Of a stretch of DNA of 64,000 bases, positions 7,655 to 22,475 are shown piece by piece; the stretch's first letter is position 1; each line of letters starts with the position of its first letter. Origin of the DNA: Bacteroidota bacterium (GTDB lineage Bacteria > Bacteroidota > Bacteroidia > Chitinophagales > Saprospiraceae); assembly GCA_018222965.1 (NCBI GenBank), contig JAAEZH010000015.1, positions 1 to 64,000 on the forward strand, written 5' to 3'. The position numbers and the translations under genes were made by a program. Under the pieces are notes generated by a model. That model saw only the letters and a list, made by a program, of their open reading frames with translations. It had not been told where the DNA came from and made no database searches.

Positions 7655-7993
7655 ATGAAATATTTCTCTGTCCTCTTTCTTGCGCTTACTTTTCTGATTG
7701 CCTGTGGTTCTGAATCTGCCAGCGACAGCACCGCAGCGGCTTCTGCTACTCCCGCCCCGCCAGACGGAAAAAAGATCTATAAAATCAATTGCGTACAATG
7801 CCATGGACTGCGAGGAAACCTTGGTGCCAGTGGTTCCTTCGACCTTACTTCCTCCGACCTGAGCATGGAAGAACGCATCAACGTAATCACCAACGGCCGA
7901 AATACCATGATGCCTTTTAAATCGCTCCTCGACGAAGACGAGATCGAAGCTGTGGCAAAATACACCCTCGAACTGAAGGTCTCCGAAGAATGA
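7655..7993 (+). CDS. Small cytochrome c lipoprotein
   Basis: 112 residues. The N-terminus is a lipoprotein signal with the lipobox LIAC (Cys about 17), followed by a Ser/Ala/Pro linker, so the protein is probably anchored to a membrane and faces the periplasm. One heme-attachment site, CVQCH, lies about residues 46-50. The distal Met ligand is probably the Met in NTMMPFK (about 92-98). This is the small class I cytochrome c fold with about 75 residues after the linker. Its stop overlaps the anmK start (ATGA at 7990-7993), so the two are translationally coupled, although no functional link is obvious. It probably carries electrons to a terminal oxidase; the partner is not in the window. Confidence 0.85.
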   Translation: MKYFSVLFLALTFLIACGSESASDSTAAASATPAPPDGKKIYKINCVQCHGLRGNLGASGSFDLTSSDLSMEERINVITNGRNTMMPFKSLLDEDEIEAVAKYTLELKVSEE

Positions 7994-9051
7994 TCAGCCG
8001 ACGAATTCTCGGCATGATGTCGGGCAGCTCGCTCGATGGTGTTGATTTGGCCATTTGCCGATTTGATTGGGAAGGTGATCACTTTTCTTCCTGGAAAATG
8101 GAGCAGACAGCAACCATCCCCTACTCCGATGCCTGGATCAAACGATTGCAAAAATGTGCCGATTACAAGCTGGCAGATTTGCTTCAACTGGACAGCCTCC
8201 TGGCCGAAGCCTACTTGCAGATATTAGAGCAATTTGATCCCTGGGAAAAGAGAAAAAAAGACATTGATGCCGTTGCCTTACACGGGCATACCGTGTTGCA
8301 CCAGCCCGAAGCGGAGATTAGCCTCCAACTGGGTTCGGGCGCACATGTAGCGAAAGCCATTCAGGCTCCTGTAATTACTCAATTGCGGGATGCAGACATA
8401 GAGGCTGGCGGACAAGGTGCGCCACTCGCTCCACTGGCAGATCGCTTTCTTTTTCCCGGCTATGCAGCCTACCTCAACATTGGAGGGATTTCCAATTGCT
8501 ACATTCCGAATAAAAAACTTGCTTTTGATACCGGTGGGGCCAATCAGCTGCTGAACCGGCTCGCTAATATAGCCGGGAAATCCTACGATAAAGAGGGACA
8601 AATGGCTAAAAAAGGCCAACTTATTCCGACGCTGCTGGAAGAATTAAATAAACTGCCCTGGTTTCAAAAACCTGCTCCAAAGTCCTTATCCAATCAGTGG
8701 GTCCGGGAAATCGTGTGGCCAATTATTGAAAAAACCGAAGGATCGGTGGCGGATAAATTACACACCACTACCCAACACATCGCCTGGCATATCTCCGAAG
8801 CGCTGCGGGGAATAGAAGGAAAAATACTCCTGAGCGGAGGTGGAGCACACAACACCTATTTAGTGCAATGTCTCCAAAACCATCTGGGTGACTCCCTGTT
8901 TATTCCCAAACCGGAAGTGATAGATTATAAAGAAGCAGCACTGACTGCGCTGGTGGGATTCTTTCGGCTGGAGCAAATTCCGGCTCCCATTTGCGAATTG
9001 ACAGGCGCTTCCCGCAATGCTGTGCCGGGAGCTTTGTATCTTCCCGCCTGA
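7990..9051 (+). CDS. anmK: Anhydro-N-acetylmuramic acid kinase
   Basis: 353-residue cytoplasmic kinase that cleaves and phosphorylates 1,6-anhydro-MurNAc to MurNAc-6-phosphate in peptidoglycan recycling. Seen: the N-terminal GMMSGSSLDGVD phosphate-binding motif (residues 8-19), LNIGGISN (about 161-168) followed by AFDTGGANQLLN with the catalytic Asp region, and LLSGGGAHN near residue 283. Length is typical of the Bacteroidota form. It overlaps the upstream cytochrome gene by four bases, and the epimerase gene starts 19 bases downstream, so the three probably form one transcript. An AmgK-type sugar kinase at 19.4-20.9 kb may act on related sugars. MurQ and sugar permeases are not in the window. 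Confidence 0.9.
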   Translation: MISRRILGMMSGSSLDGVDLAICRFDWEGDHFSSWKMEQTATIPYSDAWIKRLQKCADYKLADLLQLDSLLAEAYLQILEQFDPWEKRKKDIDAVALHGHTVLHQPEAEISLQLGSGAHVAKAIQAPVITQLRDADIEAGGQGAPLAPLADRFLFPGYAAYLNIGGISNCYIPNKKLAFDTGGANQLLNRLANIAGKSYDKEGQMAKKGQLIPTLLEELNKLPWFQKPAPKSLSNQWVREIVWPIIEKTEGSVADKLHTTTQHIAWHISEALRGIEGKILLSGGGAHNTYLVQCLQNHLGDSLFIPKPEVIDYKEAALTALVGFFRLEQIPAPICELTGASRNAVPGALYLPA

Positions 9052-15507: not shown

Positions 15508-16146
15508 TTACCGTTTCTTTCCCACAAACCGGATATACCGCCAGCTTCCTCCATATGCCCAGTGCAAACGCACTTTTGCCGGAGCAAACAACTTTGACAA
15601 TACCGGCAACAAATGACCTTCCATTCGCACATGATGATTGCTCATGTGCTCCCGAAACCAGGTCAATGGAGAATCGTGAAAATCAACTACCGCTATCCAT
15701 CCGCCTGGTTTCAGATCGGCAGCTGCCCGTTCCAGAAGCATTTCCCACTGCGGATTGATCATCGTCAGGGAATAAGAAAACAACACCACGTCCAGTTTTC
15801 CTGTCATTGGATTGGCTTCCGCCGAATAGGCTTCCTGGATCAGCGCTACCCTATCCCGAAATCGACTGGTACGCTTTCCGGCCAACTGAATCATATCGGA
15901 TGACACATCCATTCCGGTGAAGCGGGCATTGGGAAATCTACGGGCCAGATTGCGCAGATTATACCCCGTCCCGCAGCCAACCTCCAGCAGGTTAAAAGCT
16001 TCTCCTCGTCCAAAAGGAAGATCCCGAAGGATTGCTTTTCGCCCAAACAGAAAACTCCACCGGGTGAGATCGTAAATTTTCGATTGCAGGCGGTAATAAG
16101 CCTGCATGTTTCGGTTCTGCTGTAATTCTCCTCTTTGAATATCCAT
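15508..16146 (-). CDS. btaB: SAM-dependent N-methyltransferase, BtaB-like
   Basis: 212-residue class I methyltransferase. The SAM-binding motif LLEVGCGTGYN is at residues about 53-63, the acidic GMDVS strand follows, and FSYSLTMI and VVDFHDS lie in the second half; the last two are characteristic of BtaB-type enzymes. It starts five bases after the stop of the DUF3419 (BtaA) gene, so the pair is an operon. BtaB would methylate diacylglyceryl-homoserine three times to give the betaine lipid DGTS at the inner membrane. The assignment depends on the partner: taken alone the protein could be any small methyltransferase, but the pairing and the motifs make BtaB the best reading. It faces the convergent fic gene 46 bases away. 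Confidence 0.75.
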   Translation of the reverse strand: MDIQRGELQQNRNMQAYYRLQSKIYDLTRWSFLFGRKAILRDLPFGRGEAFNLLEVGCGTGYNLRNLARRFPNARFTGMDVSSDMIQLAGKRTSRFRDRVALIQEAYSAEANPMTGKLDVVLFSYSLTMINPQWEMLLERAAADLKPGGWIAVVDFHDSPLTWFREHMSNHHVRMEGHLLPVLSKLFAPAKVRLHWAYGGSWRYIRFVGKKR

Positions 16147-16151
16147 AGCAA

Positions 16152-17333
16152 TTATTTTACAGTGGCTAAATACACACTGGCGTATGTTCCGACTCGATCC
16201 AGGGCATGCTGTTTAAGGGTTTCTTCCTCTTCAAATTCGACGCGATCAAGCACAAAGTCCGGGAAAAAGTCTACCTCAGGAGCTGCAGAACGCAGCAAAA
16301 TCCGGGTTCCCGAATGGCTGTTTTTCAAAATCAGGTGCCATTCTTCCTCCAGTGCTTCAGGCATATGTTGGGCCAGCCAATCCTGATGATCCAACAAAAT
16401 AAAATGAGAGTATGACCCCGGATTTTTCTGAAGAAATTCAGCCAGGGTATTGGTATGGGTCTTTACCCGATCGATTCGATCTATGAGCAATTCCTGATTA
16501 TCTGCCTTCAGATATTCCGGACAGCAATCTTTCGAATAATAGCCGTGCAGGTATAAATGGTAGAAGTAATTTTCATTCGCCGGAAGGCTGAGGAAAACAT
16601 TGCGCAGGCATTTTCTCACATAACCCGGAATCCCCTTCTCATAGCGATCAAAAAACAACTTTTGCTGGGCGCGAGGCACCCCGACCAGACTCATGGTCAA
16701 ATGCTGATTAAGTGCCCATTCTACCAGGCCATCCAAAATCCGGCGTTCCACCGCTTTGTAAATCTCTTGCTGAGCCTGCATATCCGGAGCAGCAAACAGG
16801 GCTTTCATCTGCTTTCTCAATCCACGCTTGGAGGTAAAATACTGTCGGGCGAGCCAGGCAAAGGTTCCGGAAGAGCCGTAATAGTAAAAGGATTTGCGCA
16901 GCCCTTTGCCGGTAAACATGCGGATATTCCGATCCCAATATTCCTGGGCAGAGGCGGGAAGAAAAGGACGTAAACGGGTTTCATACCGGATGATTGCATC
17001 GGGATCTTGTCCCATGCCAAACATTTGAAATAACTGCTCGTGGGTGAGATTTACAAGAGCAGCCCTTTTCAGTTCCAGCAGCGCATTCTGCCTGAAATTC
17101 ACATCCACACAATGGATGGCTTTTGGATCATCCAACAAATATTCCAGGGCATTACATCCTGCACTGGTAATCATAACCACTTCACTGTCGGGACCAAAAT
17201 GGAGGAGAGCCCGGTCGCAGCGAGGATCTTCCCAACAGGTGTTGTAAACCAGGTTCTTAGTATGTACCCGGCGGAATGTCCAGTTGCGGATCTTATCCCG
17301 CCGGGTCCTTAGAGGAGTGTGTGTTGCAGCCAT
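16152..17333 (-). CDS. btaA: DUF3419 protein, BtaA-like aminocarboxypropyl transferase
   Basis: 393 residues from the ATG at 17333; a GTG at 17354 would add seven residues. DUF3419 proteins transfer the 3-amino-3-carboxypropyl group of SAM to diacylglycerol, the first step of betaine-lipid (DGTS) synthesis. Seen: YNTCWEDPRCD (about 30-40), ITSAGCNALEYLL (about 55-67) and HCVDVNFRQNALLELK, the SAM-fold motifs of this family; a C-terminal half with several LLDHQDW/WHLILKNS strands follows. Length fits BtaA (about 400). The BtaB-like methyltransferase begins five bases downstream. A TACATTTG box at 17345-17338 (minus strand), the consensus -7 element of Bacteroidota, lies so close to the ATG that the transcript would be nearly leaderless. 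Confidence 0.8.
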   Translation of the reverse strand: MAATHTPLRTRRDKIRNWTFRRVHTKNLVYNTCWEDPRCDRALLHFGPDSEVVMITSAGCNALEYLLDDPKAIHCVDVNFRQNALLELKRAALVNLTHEQLFQMFGMGQDPDAIIRYETRLRPFLPASAQEYWDRNIRMFTGKGLRKSFYYYGSSGTFAWLARQYFTSKRGLRKQMKALFAAPDMQAQQEIYKAVERRILDGLVEWALNQHLTMSLVGVPRAQQKLFFDRYEKGIPGYVRKCLRNVFLSLPANENYFYHLYLHGYYSKDCCPEYLKADNQELLIDRIDRVKTHTNTLAEFLQKNPGSYSHFILLDHQDWLAQHMPEALEEEWHLILKNSHSGTRILLRSAAPEVDFFPDFVLDRVEFEEEETLKQHALDRVGTYASVYLATVK

Positions 17334-17519
17334 TACCCAAATGTACCCGGGCAATGTCTGCTGGATATTAAGCCAAATTTATCCTTTGGTTAATTTTTTA
17401 AAGTTGAGTTTGGGGGAGGTCGGTTCTCGCTTTGCTCAGCGGTTGGGTTGAGTGGAGGGCAAATGCAAATGAGATCCGTTTTACTTTTTGAAGAATAGTC
17501 GTTCTTTACCCAACTCCCA

Positions 17520-19419: not shown

Positions 19420-20856
19420 TCAAGCCTGATTCTCCGGCCAAAAGCTTCGTTCGCGGTGCTTTAGCTCAACGGTTACGCCTTCGCGTTGGGCAAGACGTGC
19501 TGCCAGTTGTTCGGCAGAGAACACCGAGCGATGTTGTCCGCCGGTACAGCCAAAGCTTACCTGCAAGTCGGTAAATTCCCTTTCCAGATAAGTGTCTACT
19601 GCCCGGTCAACCAGGGTAAATACCGGCTCGAGGAAGTCACCAATTCCGCTTTTTTCTTTCAGGAATTGCTGGACACCAGCATTCAAGCCGGTAAGGGGTT
19701 TATACTCTTCGAAGCGGCCGGGATTGAGCAAAGGACGACAGTCAAAAATATATCCACCACCATTGCCGGAAGGGTCTTCCGGCAATCCGCGTTTGTATGA
19801 AAAGCTGGTGATTCGAACGGTGAGATCTGTCGACTTTTGTTCTGCTGGCATCGGAAAAGAATTATATGTTTTCGAAAGGGCTTCCTCAATCACACTAACA
19901 TCCACGGGAAAATCTACCTGGGCAAACAACCAACGGGCATTCTCCAGTGCGAAGGGAATACTTTGGATAAAATGCGGTTTTTTCTGCACCAGGCCCCGAA
20001 AGCCATAGGCTCCCAAAACCTGCAGGGTACGCAACAACACAAAGCCATAATACGATTTGCGGAAACGCGCCTTGTCAATATCTGAATATTGCTGCACCTC
20101 CCCCATGTAATAATCCAACAATTGTTCGCGCACTTCTGCCGGCATTTGTGCTTTTGCCTGCCAAAGCAGAGAGGCCACGTCATAAGCAACCGGCCCTTTT
20201 CGCCCGCCCTGATAATCGATAAAGTAAGGCTTCCCTCCCTGAAAAATCACATTGCGGGACTGGCAGTCACGCAGCATAAAGTACCAGGCAGGAGCTTCCA
20301 TCAACCAATCGAGCAAAGCATTATAAGCCTGCTCTAAAGCGGCTTCATCAAAGGGGACCTCCTGCAATTTCAGATAGAAATACTTGAAATAATCCAGATC
20401 CCACCGCATAGCTGTTCGATCGAATCGAGCAGCCGGGTAGGCAGATTCATAAGGCAGATCTTTGTCTCCCAGGATTTGGATTCGCGCCAGTTCGGCCAGG
20501 ACCAATTTGTATTTTTCAATCAAATTCGGACCAAATGTTTCGCCATCGGCAGGCAAATCCTTATAGAGGGAATGCGCTCCGAGGTCTTCCTGCAAATACA
20601 AATAGCCATTCGCCGAAAGGCCATAAATAGCCGGTACAGCGAGCCCTAATTGATCAAAATGCCGGGAAAAATCCAGGAAGGCTTTATTCTCTTTCAGATC
20701 TTCGTTCCAGGTTGCGATGGCTTGTTTATCTCCGCCCGAAACGCGAAAGTAGCGGCGGGAGGATCCGGCCAGCGGCAAAGGCACAATGTTTTCCGCTTCC
20801 GCGAATGCCCACTCGCGAAACAGTTTTTTTATGCCTTGTTCGATCTGATTATCCAA
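19420..20856 (-). CDS. AmgK-like sugar kinase fused to RapZ C-terminal domain
   Basis: 478 residues in two parts. Residues 1 to about 325 are an aminoglycoside-phosphotransferase-fold kinase: LAGSSRRYFRV (29-39), RDCQSRN (196-202, Brenner-type catalytic loop) and FIDYQGGRKGP (212-222, Mg-binding Asp). These segments resemble AmgK, the MurNAc/GlcNAc anomeric kinase of cell-wall recycling. Residues about 345-478 are the RapZ C-terminal domain, with its signature GCTGGQHRS (436-444). In E. coli RapZ this domain senses glucosamine-6-phosphate. The P-loop N-terminal domain of RapZ is absent. The fusion could couple sugar kinase activity to amino-sugar levels, which is inference. It follows obgE by 18 bases in an adk-obgE-kinase operon. 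Confidence 0.8.
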   Translation of the reverse strand: MDNQIEQGIKKLFREWAFAEAENIVPLPLAGSSRRYFRVSGGDKQAIATWNEDLKENKAFLDFSRHFDQLGLAVPAIYGLSANGYLYLQEDLGAHSLYKDLPADGETFGPNLIEKYKLVLAELARIQILGDKDLPYESAYPAARFDRTAMRWDLDYFKYFYLKLQEVPFDEAALEQAYNALLDWLMEAPAWYFMLRDCQSRNVIFQGGKPYFIDYQGGRKGPVAYDVASLLWQAKAQMPAEVREQLLDYYMGEVQQYSDIDKARFRKSYYGFVLLRTLQVLGAYGFRGLVQKKPHFIQSIPFALENARWLFAQVDFPVDVSVIEEALSKTYNSFPMPAEQKSTDLTVRITSFSYKRGLPEDPSGNGGGYIFDCRPLLNPGRFEEYKPLTGLNAGVQQFLKEKSGIGDFLEPVFTLVDRAVDTYLEREFTDLQVSFGCTGGQHRSVFSAEQLAARLAQREGVTVELKHRERSFWPENQA

Positions 20857-20874: not shown

Positions 20875-21876
20875 TTAATCCTGCTCCGCATGCATCTCTT
20901 TCCAGATGAGGTCTTTGAGTGCATCCAGTCCTTTTTGAGCTACGGATGAAATGAATACATAGGGAATCGCGTCGGGCAGTTCCTTCTCCAGTAAGCCCTT
21001 TAGCTCTTCATCGAGCATATCCGATTTGGTAATAGCCAGGATTCTCGGTTTGTCGAGCAATTCCTGATTGTACTGAAACAGCTCGTTGAGCAATACCTCG
21101 TATTCCTTTTTGATGCTCTCCGTATCACAGGGGATCATAAACAGGAGGATGGAATTGCGCTCAATATGTCGCAGAAAACGATGGCCGAGCCCTTTTCCTT
21201 CATGCGCTTTCTCAATAATTCCGGGAATATCTGCCATCACGAAAGAACGATGGTCCCGGTATTTTACGATACCCAAATTAGGCACCAGCGTCGTAAAAGG
21301 ATAATTGGCGATTTTGGGTTTGGCGGCCGAAACGACCGACAACAAAGTAGATTTTCCGGCATTCGGGAATCCAACCAGGCCGACATCTGCCAGCACTTTA
21401 AGTTCCAGGATTTTCCATTCTTCTTTGCCATCCTGCCCGGGTTGAGAATAACGGGGCGTCTGATTGGTAGAAGATTTGAAGTGACTGTTGCCCAATCCTC
21501 CCATACCTCCTTCAACCAGGATCCTTTCCTCTCCGTGTTTGGTGATTTCCATATTGATCTCACCGGTCTCAACGTCTTTGGCTACCGTACCGAGTGGCAC
21601 ATCCAACACAATGTCGTCTCCGTTTTTTCCGGTGCGGTGGTTTTCACTTCCGTTTCCGCCCCGGCCGGCAACTACATGCTTTCGATACTTCAAATTGAGA
21701 AGGGTCCAGACATTTTCGTTGCCTCGCAAAATCACATGTCCGCCGCGTCCGCCATCACCGCCATCGGGACCTCCTTTAGGGTTTCCCTTGGTGCGAAGCA
21801 AATGAGAGGAACCTGCTCCGCCGGCACCAGACCGGCAGCAGATTTTTACATAATCGACAAAATTCTGCTCTGCCAT
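20875..21876 (-). CDS. obgE: GTPase Obg
   Basis: 333-residue ribosome-associated GTPase needed for 50S assembly and stress control. The glycine-rich Obg fold takes residues 1-158, with repeats such as [12 protein letters not shown] and [17 protein letters not shown]. The G domain follows, with G1 GFPNAGKS (about 166-173), G3 DIPGIIEKA and G4 TKSD. The C-terminal domain of some Obg proteins is absent, as usual in this phylum. It sits 20 bases after adk and 18 bases before the AmgK-RapZ gene, so the three are co-transcribed. Confidence 0.95.
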
Positions 21877-21896: not shown

Positions 21897-22475
21897 TTAA
21901 ATTTCTTTATCAATAGCCGTGCAAAGGCGGTCAAATATCTCTTCAATGGATCCAATACCGTCGATCTTTTGGGACTTGCCCTTTTTATCGTAGTAATCGA
22001 ATACGGGAGCTGTTTCACTATTGTAGACCTCGATCCGGTTGCGAATGATCGACTCATCATTATCATCGGGACGGCCGGATGTTTTTCCGCGCTCCAGAAT
22101 ACGCTTTACAATTTCTTCGTCGTCTACTTCCAGAGAAAGCAGGGCGGTAACTTCTTCCTTGCGCTCTCCGAGCAAAACATCCAGTGCTTCTGCCTGAGCC
22201 ACGGTGCGAGGGAAGCCGTCGAAAATATATCCAGCAACATCCGGATTCGCTTCTACCTTGTTACGAAGCATGCCAATAGTAACCGAATCCGGCACCAACT
22301 CTCCTTTTTCAATGTAACTTTTTGCCTCCTGGCCCAGAGGGGTGTTGTTACCCATTTCATAGCGAAACAGATCACCGGTAGAAATATGCAAAAGGTCATA
22401 TTTCTCGGTCAAACGGGCAGCCTGGGTTCCTTTACCACTACCCGGAGGGCCAAAAAGAATTAAATTGATCATCAA
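21897..22475 (-). CDS. adk: Adenylate kinase
   Basis: 192-residue enzyme converting ATP and AMP into two ADP. The P-loop GPPGSGKGTQAA is at residues about 9-20, the AMP-binding stretch STGDLFRYEM follows, then FDGFPRTVAQAEAL and the Arg-rich ERGKTSGRPDD. The LID is short and lacks the four zinc-binding cysteines of many bacterial enzymes, so this is the short form. Two adjacent ATG codons (22475 and 22472) are possible starts. It is the first gene of the adk-obgE-AmgK/RapZ operon; the gap of about 110 bases before it separates it from the NlpC/P60 gene. Confidence 0.95.
   Translation of the reverse strand: MMINLILFGPPGSGKGTQAARLTEKYDLLHISTGDLFRYEMGNNTPLGQEAKSYIEKGELVPDSVTIGMLRNKVEANPDVAGYIFDGFPRTVAQAEALDVLLGERKEEVTALLSLEVDDEEIVKRILERGKTSGRPDDNDESIIRNRIEVYNSETAPVFDYYDKKGKSQKIDGIGSIEEIFDRLCTAIDKEI

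Follow-up and report, generated by a model that had tools for sequence, protein, structure and literature searches.

An AmgK-like kinase joined to the C-terminal domain of RapZ in Bacteroidota, and its possible place in cell-wall sugar salvage

In the window (the whole stretch of 64,000 nucleotides of Bacteroidota DNA that was analysed), the gene at 19420-20856 on the minus strand encodes a protein of 478 amino acids, with a TTG start and without an internal stop, in which an AmgK-like kinase is fused to the C-terminal domain of RapZ (RapZ-C). Residues 30-251 (20104-20769, minus strand) make up an APH-type kinase domain (PF01636, E 3.7e-17, 63.3 bits against a cut-off of 23.2), with the catalytic loop RDCQSRN at residues 196-202 (20251-20271, minus strand) and the motif FIDYQGGRKGP at residues 212-222 (20191-20223, minus strand). 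D197 and N202 of the loop and D214 of the motif are invariant in 22 fused proteins, and D214 would bind metal, as is usual for this residue in APH-type kinases. A linker at residues 338-342 (19831-19845, minus strand), modelled by AlphaFold2 with low confidence (pLDDT <50), leads to RapZ-C at residues 346-469 (19450-19821, minus strand; PF22740 RapZ_C, E 5.3e-32, 111 bits, cut-off 27). Three short elements of this domain matter for what follows: a glycine loop, GNGGG, at residues 364-368 (19753-19767, minus strand), which is absent from the canonical RapZ sequences compared and whose GGG is invariant in 22 fused proteins and 27 RapZ-C domains; the tetrapeptide NPGR at residues 378-381 (19714-19725, minus strand), with Gly where E. 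coli RapZ has H190; and a putative anion-binding loop, GCTGGQHRS, at residues 436-444 (19525-19551, minus strand), which has the pattern C-x2-G-x2-R-S.

The fusion gene follows adk (21897-22475; PF00406, E 7.8e-52) and obgE (20875-21876; PF01018, E 2.4e-54), all three on the minus strand, with 20 nt between adk and obgE and 18 nt between obgE and the fusion gene. The gene for anhydro-MurNAc kinase, anmK, is at 7990-9051 on the plus strand, in another operon (PF03702, E 2.3e-58; NCBIfam NF007144, E 5.9e-100, 334.9 bits, under the cut-off of 436), and is a possible pathway partner of the fusion kinase. A profile search of the window genome found a single copy of RapZ-C, and a MurU-like gene (E 1.6e-86) lies on another contig, C95, away from the fusion. 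The P-loop domain of RapZ (PF03668) is absent from the fusion protein in a Pfam scan and was not found in the window genome. An earlier note on this DNA had described an AmgK-type kinase and RapZ-C in one protein, recognised by the motifs RDCQSRN, FIDYQGGRKGP and GCTGGQHRS, without the RapZ P-loop domain and placed with adk and obgE; this description holds in full, with the three motifs present in the 478-residue frame and both Pfam domains above their cut-offs.

Comparison with known families places each half near, and at some distance from, a characterised protein. For the kinase part, AmgK ranks best among NCBIfam models, with 52.2 and 42.4 bits, far under the cut-offs of 500 and 550 (NF045698 and NF045759); the APH fold and catalytic residues are shared with AmgK of Pseudomonas, while the C-terminal RapZ-C is an addition outside these models. 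The nearest solved sequence is 3csv (E 1.3e-16), which is also the best match by fold (Z 29.3); other fold matches include corramycin phosphotransferase (27.6), choline kinases (about 20-22) and N-acetylhexosamine 1-kinase (4ocv, 20.8). For the C-terminal part the best NCBIfam model is RapZ (100.3 bits, cut-off 244) and the nearest solved sequence is E. coli RapZ (E 1.6e-14). A model of RapZ-C alone (pLDDT 92.5) superimposes on E. coli RapZ with Z 17.4-19.0 and rmsd 1.8-2.3 over 123-128 residues, at 32-36% identity in the structure alignments, and shares with RapZ/YvcJ (PF03668 + PF22740) the GCTGGxHRS loop. The differences from RapZ/YvcJ are the missing P-loop N-terminal domain and basic tail, the Gly at the H190 position and the added GNGGG loop. 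The full-length AlphaFold2 model has pLDDT 89.7 and pTM 0.70; because of the weak linker the arrangement of the two domains in it is not fixed.

In E. coli the pocket of RapZ is described as formed by H190, H252 and R253 with the backbone of T248 and G249, and malonate or sulfate occupied it in the C-terminal domain (PMC5737377); this domain alone is reported to bind GlcN6P (PMC7073468), and substitution of H190 by Ala to inactivate RapZ (PMC9841335). In the fusion family T248, G249, H252 and R253 are all kept, as is C247, described as lying close to the pocket (PMC9841335), and H190 alone is changed. The loop GCTGG(Q/R)HRS was present in 66/66 RapZ-C domains fetched by profile, four of them canonical, and the residue after NP, at the H190 position, was Gly in all 62 fusion-family domains among them; in the four canonical proteins this position also varies (H, H, N and Y). 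A larger set of 132 fusion-family stretches again had Gly at this position in every case, with D182, R184, N188, P189, G200 and H276 invariant as well; no two of these strings are identical, though some come from overlapping loci, and since the pattern used to collect them demanded GG.HRS they are informative at other positions only. Judging from these residues, phosphate binding by RapZ-C of the fusion family is likely. Given the changes in the pocket and at the RNA contacts described below, neither GlcN6P specificity nor RNA binding should be assumed, and the ligand need not be GlcN6P.

RapZ-C was found in 27 of 247 genomes of the phylum, none of which (0/27) had the PF03668 P-loop domain. 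The kinase profile matched 81 of the 247 genomes, strongly (E <1e-70) in 28, that is, in all 27 RapZ-C genomes and one other (G009); the remaining 53 matches were weak (1e-21 to 1e-41), all from a single family, f17, and in frames too short for a fusion. A draw of 392 genomes raised the number of strong kinases to 55, the 27 new ones all having RapZ-C, which accompanies the strong kinase clade in 54/55 genomes; in the second set RapZ-C was sought in genomes chosen for having the kinase. The two domains were fused in 40 of these 54 genomes (22/27 in the first set and 18/27 in the second). Among named relatives, of which at least 586 were confirmed, 79 of the best 80 were fused, the exception (L057) having RapZ-C as a separate frame of 135 amino acids; these are the best 80 from a search seeded by GCTGGQHR or GGG patterns, so the figure is no population estimate, yet it makes an assembly artefact unlikely. 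The same best 80 of at least 586 come from Bacteroidota, Ignavibacteria, Calditrichia, Acidobacteriota, Elusimicrobia and Delongbacteria, and include loci of Bacteroides, Phocaeicola and Parabacteroides.

Three further observations concern the distribution. The single strong-kinase genome of the 55 that lacks RapZ-C, G009, has its kinase directly followed by a MurU-like gene (contig C44, 46089-47785). In family f17, counted by eye, all 54 sampled genomes were without MurQ and AnmK, and 53 of the 54 had a divergent AmgK-like kinase without RapZ-C. In the window's own family RapZ-C is patchy, with 0/5 in the other sampled genomes; MurQ is present in those five and missing from the window genome. 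The idea that the fusion generally replaces canonical RapZ was rejected: among 12 genomes behind loci of the named relatives, canonical RapZ coexists with the fusion in two Acidobacteriota and two Elusimicrobia, its frames being 294-352 residues long, and in the remaining eight the fusion is the only RapZ-C.

The anabolic MurNAc recycling route of Pseudomonas and Caulobacter is MupP-AmgK-MurU, in which MupP is a HAD phosphatase. A pair resembling its last two members recurs here: 41 of the 54 RapZ-C genomes have a MurU-like gene within 1.5 kb (20/27 and 21/27), and 56 of the 80 named loci (the best 80 of at least 586) have one downstream on the same strand at a distance of no more than 400 nt, a lower bound because the sequence of some loci stops shortly after the fusion gene. 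MurU was the top NCBIfam model for all six partners scanned (L002, L003, L018, L026, L034 and L110), below its equivalog cut-off throughout: 131-147 bits against 250 in L002, L003, L018 and L026, 114.7 in L034, and 105 against 370 in L110. The last of these is a triple fusion of kinase, RapZ-C and MurU, 760 amino acids long (L110, 4986-7268, plus strand), in a Bacteroidaceae record from a water buffalo colon MAG.

The kinase is also distributed in a manner complementary to MurQ. MurQ was absent from 70 of the 247 genomes, 69 of which had an AmgK-like kinase, as against only 12 of the 177 genomes with MurQ (Fisher 2e-47, uncorrected for kinship, and 54 of the 70 belong to a single family); absence was read by eye as a best E worse than 1e-12, and the family and AnmK counts were also made by eye. 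Among the RapZ-C genomes MurQ was missing from 32 of 54 (15/27, and 17/27 at E 1e-40) and AnmK was present in 36 of 54 (19/27 including one partial match, in G216, and 17/27). An either/or pattern of AmgK and MurQ is reported for proteobacteria (PMC5371407), and an AmgK-MurU route has been proposed for Tannerella forsythia, a member of the Bacteroidota (PMC7670621, PMC13046382), so the route has a precedent in this phylum and the part left to explain is RapZ-C, a component that the fusion family adds to it. The fusion probably works in the salvage of MurNAc and GlcNAc by way of AmgK and MurU. On the strength of sequence, context and distribution, we consider it highly probable that the N-terminal part is an AmgK-type kinase feeding a MurU-like uridylyltransferase and so bypassing MurA and MurB.

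In 14 of the 54 genomes RapZ-C has a gene of its own. In eight of them (L011, L025-L027, L151-L154) it directly follows the kinase, and in six (G180, G283, G318, G392, G396 and G337) it is unlinked, on another contig or far away; these natural single-domain proteins are about 133-143 amino acids long. In G337 only 45 nt separate the end of RapZ-C from murU and the kinase is some 560 kb distant; in the other five unlinked genomes no MurU-like gene was found within 1.5 kb of RapZ-C. In a midpoint-rooted tree of 65 RapZ-C domains, including four canonical rows, in which bootstrap values were unsettled and many forks open, the fusion family stood apart from the four canonical RapZ sequences (100/99), and separate genes appeared in three places as drawn: a clade of family f4 inside fused sequences of family f2 (97/97), L011 among fused sequences (98/78), and family f47 together with G180 (94/99), in an open position. 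Most simply read, the fusion has split repeatedly and RapZ-C has been kept each time, which implies that its function needs no tether; the number of fissions was read from the drawn tree, the label statistic leaving out the fused rows. RapZ-C of f47 is possibly ancestrally separate, and L011, whose two frames share one phase and are interrupted by just one stop, may contain a sequencing error.

Four f47 genomes offer an observation of their own: in each (L155, 11160-12882; L156, L157 and L164) the single-domain RapZ-C gene precedes an MFS transporter, assigned by a Pfam scan in L155 (PF07690) and by similarity in the other three, which is possibly an amino-sugar importer. In three f47 genomes the separate RapZ-C also lies about 8-16 kb from anmK, the distance in the window being about 10 kb, and a gene link between the two was considered and rejected as incidental, there being no cluster common to f47, G005 and the window.

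Our reading of the whole, to which we would give a probability of roughly 0.45, is that of a salvage kinase informed by its own supply. The N-terminal part would act as an AmgK-type anomeric kinase of amino sugars, yielding MurNAc- and/or GlcNAc-1-phosphate, which a MurU-like uridylyltransferase would take up; RapZ-C would bind a phosphorylated sugar in its GCTGGxHRS pocket and adjust the kinase, or the route, to the supply of amino-sugar phosphates. The fusion, its conservation, the conserved loop and the co-occurrence are observed, and substrate, ligand and direction of control are inferred from them. Against this reading stand the kinase and MurU scores far under equivalog cut-offs, the Gly at the H190 position, the AmgK-like kinases without RapZ-C (in the 53 f17 genomes and G009) and a murU that does not adjoin the fusion in the window genome; moreover, six genomes encode RapZ-C away from the kinase, which makes control through a tether dispensable. 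The earlier note's link to cell-wall sugar recycling gains from the MurU-like neighbour in most relatives examined, the triple fusion and the complementary MurQ distribution. Its mention of anmK in the window is correct as to the gene but carries little weight, considering that genomes with RapZ-C do not have AnmK more often than those lacking it (19/27 vs 153/220, p 1.0). Its suggestion that RapZ-C senses GlcN6P keeps the conserved GCTGGxHRS loop in its favour and is weakened by the Gly in 62/62 domains, the added GGG loop and the clade apart from the four canonical RapZ sequences, while direct control of the kinase by an amino sugar is possible and not the sole reading, with RapZ-C separate in 14/54 genomes and unlinked in six.

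The strongest rival takes RapZ-C to be an enzyme, namely a cysteine-based sugar-phosphate phosphatase built on the C-x2-G-x2-R-S loop, and we regard it as fairly unlikely. In its simplest form the domain would turn MurNAc-6-phosphate into MurNAc, the job of MupP, and one protein would then convert the MurNAc-6-phosphate made by AnmK into MurNAc-1-phosphate for MurU. The signature C, G, R and S are present in all 66 profile-fetched domains, and the loop, as in dual-specificity phosphatases (DUSPs, C-x5-R), sits between a strand and a helix in our model. Among the matches listed for this model, DUSPs account for four of 45 non-RapZ rows, at 12-16% identity: DUSP14 (Z 5.1, rmsd 3.1, 87 residues), DUSP18 (5.0, 2.8, 82), DUSP7 (4.8, 3.3, 86) and DUSP1 (4.7, 3.4, 90). 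C437 coincides with, or is one residue away from, the catalytic cysteine of DUSP18, which we take to be C104, and that of DUSP7, given as C232 in the title of the structure entry, a position obtained by arithmetic on the ends of the aligned ranges and not from a residue alignment. At the same time, phosphofructokinase (Z 6.4, rmsd 3.8, 94 residues) and peptide methyltransferases (Z about 5.5) outscore the DUSPs, a designed P-loop protein, 2lr0, scores similarly (Z 4.9, rmsd 2.7, 85 residues), and a Z near 5 can reflect a common arrangement. Foldseek alone returned nothing significant beyond RapZ for the same model. A phosphatase ancestry found no support by sequence: Pfam phosphatase models matched none of the 27 RapZ-C domains at E up to 10, in a search whose HMMER filters drop most weak matches, and the role remains putative.

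Work on E. coli RapZ cuts both ways for the phosphatase. C247A and C247S both abolish activity, the authors remarking that the -SH may be catalytic, and a crystal of the C-terminal domain with GlcN6P is described as having density that probably comes from a chemically altered product; in the same source, however, all tested pocket and C247 variants fail in the GlmZ pull-down, so that lost binding may explain the inactivity (PMC9841335). Among the genomes, 14 of 54 retain RapZ-C as a gene of its own, and the domain occurs in all nine of the 247 genomes that have AnmK without MurQ, from six families, but six genomes with neither AnmK nor MurQ also have it, and with f17 set aside the comparison (9/9 vs 6/7) is not significant (p 0.44), nor, as noted above, is AnmK enriched overall. 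In T. forsythia, loss of the MurNAc 6-kinase MurK is reported to have aided growth on scarce MurNAc (PMC7670621), which suggests that MurNAc-6-phosphate is not recovered there and speaks against a phosphatase. Stated in full, the claim would be that RapZ-C is an unrecognised cysteine-based enzyme converting sugar phosphates. In the fusion it would probably dephosphorylate MurNAc-6-phosphate and complete AmgK-MurU in Bacteroidota and other phyla, and canonical RapZ would retain the activity in residual or hidden form; this we consider unlikely. If true, such a hidden activity would explain both the dead C247S variant and the apparent transformation of GlcN6P in the crystal.

An assembly role is improbable in our estimate: RapZ-C would dimerise, hold kinase and MurU together and pass the sugar-1-phosphate on. 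The C-terminal domain of RapZ is reported to be a homodimer by itself (PMC5737377), the triple fusion places RapZ-C between kinase and MurU, and the separate RapZ-C of G337 lies just before murU; yet coupling leaves the invariant anion-binding loop unexplained, the five other unlinked RapZ-C genes have no MurU-like gene close by, and a kinase-MurU pair without RapZ-C exists in G009. That the fusion is a moonlighting regulator binding RNA as in E. coli is very improbable, since, although three contact positions are mostly basic in the 132 stretches (K170 is K/R in 125, R184 is R in 132 and R196 is K/R in 113), K251 is Q in 126, R238 is F in 125, the K194 position is K in only nine and E in 51, E. 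coli K270 aligns with Val, the window protein ends HRERSFWPENQA, without the basic tail, and the RNA-binding part of RapZ is described as restricted to Enterobacteriaceae (PMC7073468).

Searches of open-licence PMC papers found no study of the kinase-RapZ-C fusion; the pairing is not new to databases, because public genomes of familiar genera already contain it. The fusion would bring a domain known chiefly from work on a single E. coli regulator into cell-wall sugar salvage in common gut Bacteroidota, and the two-domain protein together with its natural single-domain forms provides material to settle whether RapZ-C binds amino-sugar phosphates or converts them.

Elsewhere in the window, a DUF3419 protein (PF11899, E 1.3e-109; without an NCBIfam match) adjoins a protein resembling SAM methyltransferases, whose NCBIfam matches are weak and under cut-off, within 15508-17354 on the minus strand. 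The pair may resemble BtaA/BtaB of betaine-lipid synthesis, and if the resemblance is true it would be notable in Bacteroidota.
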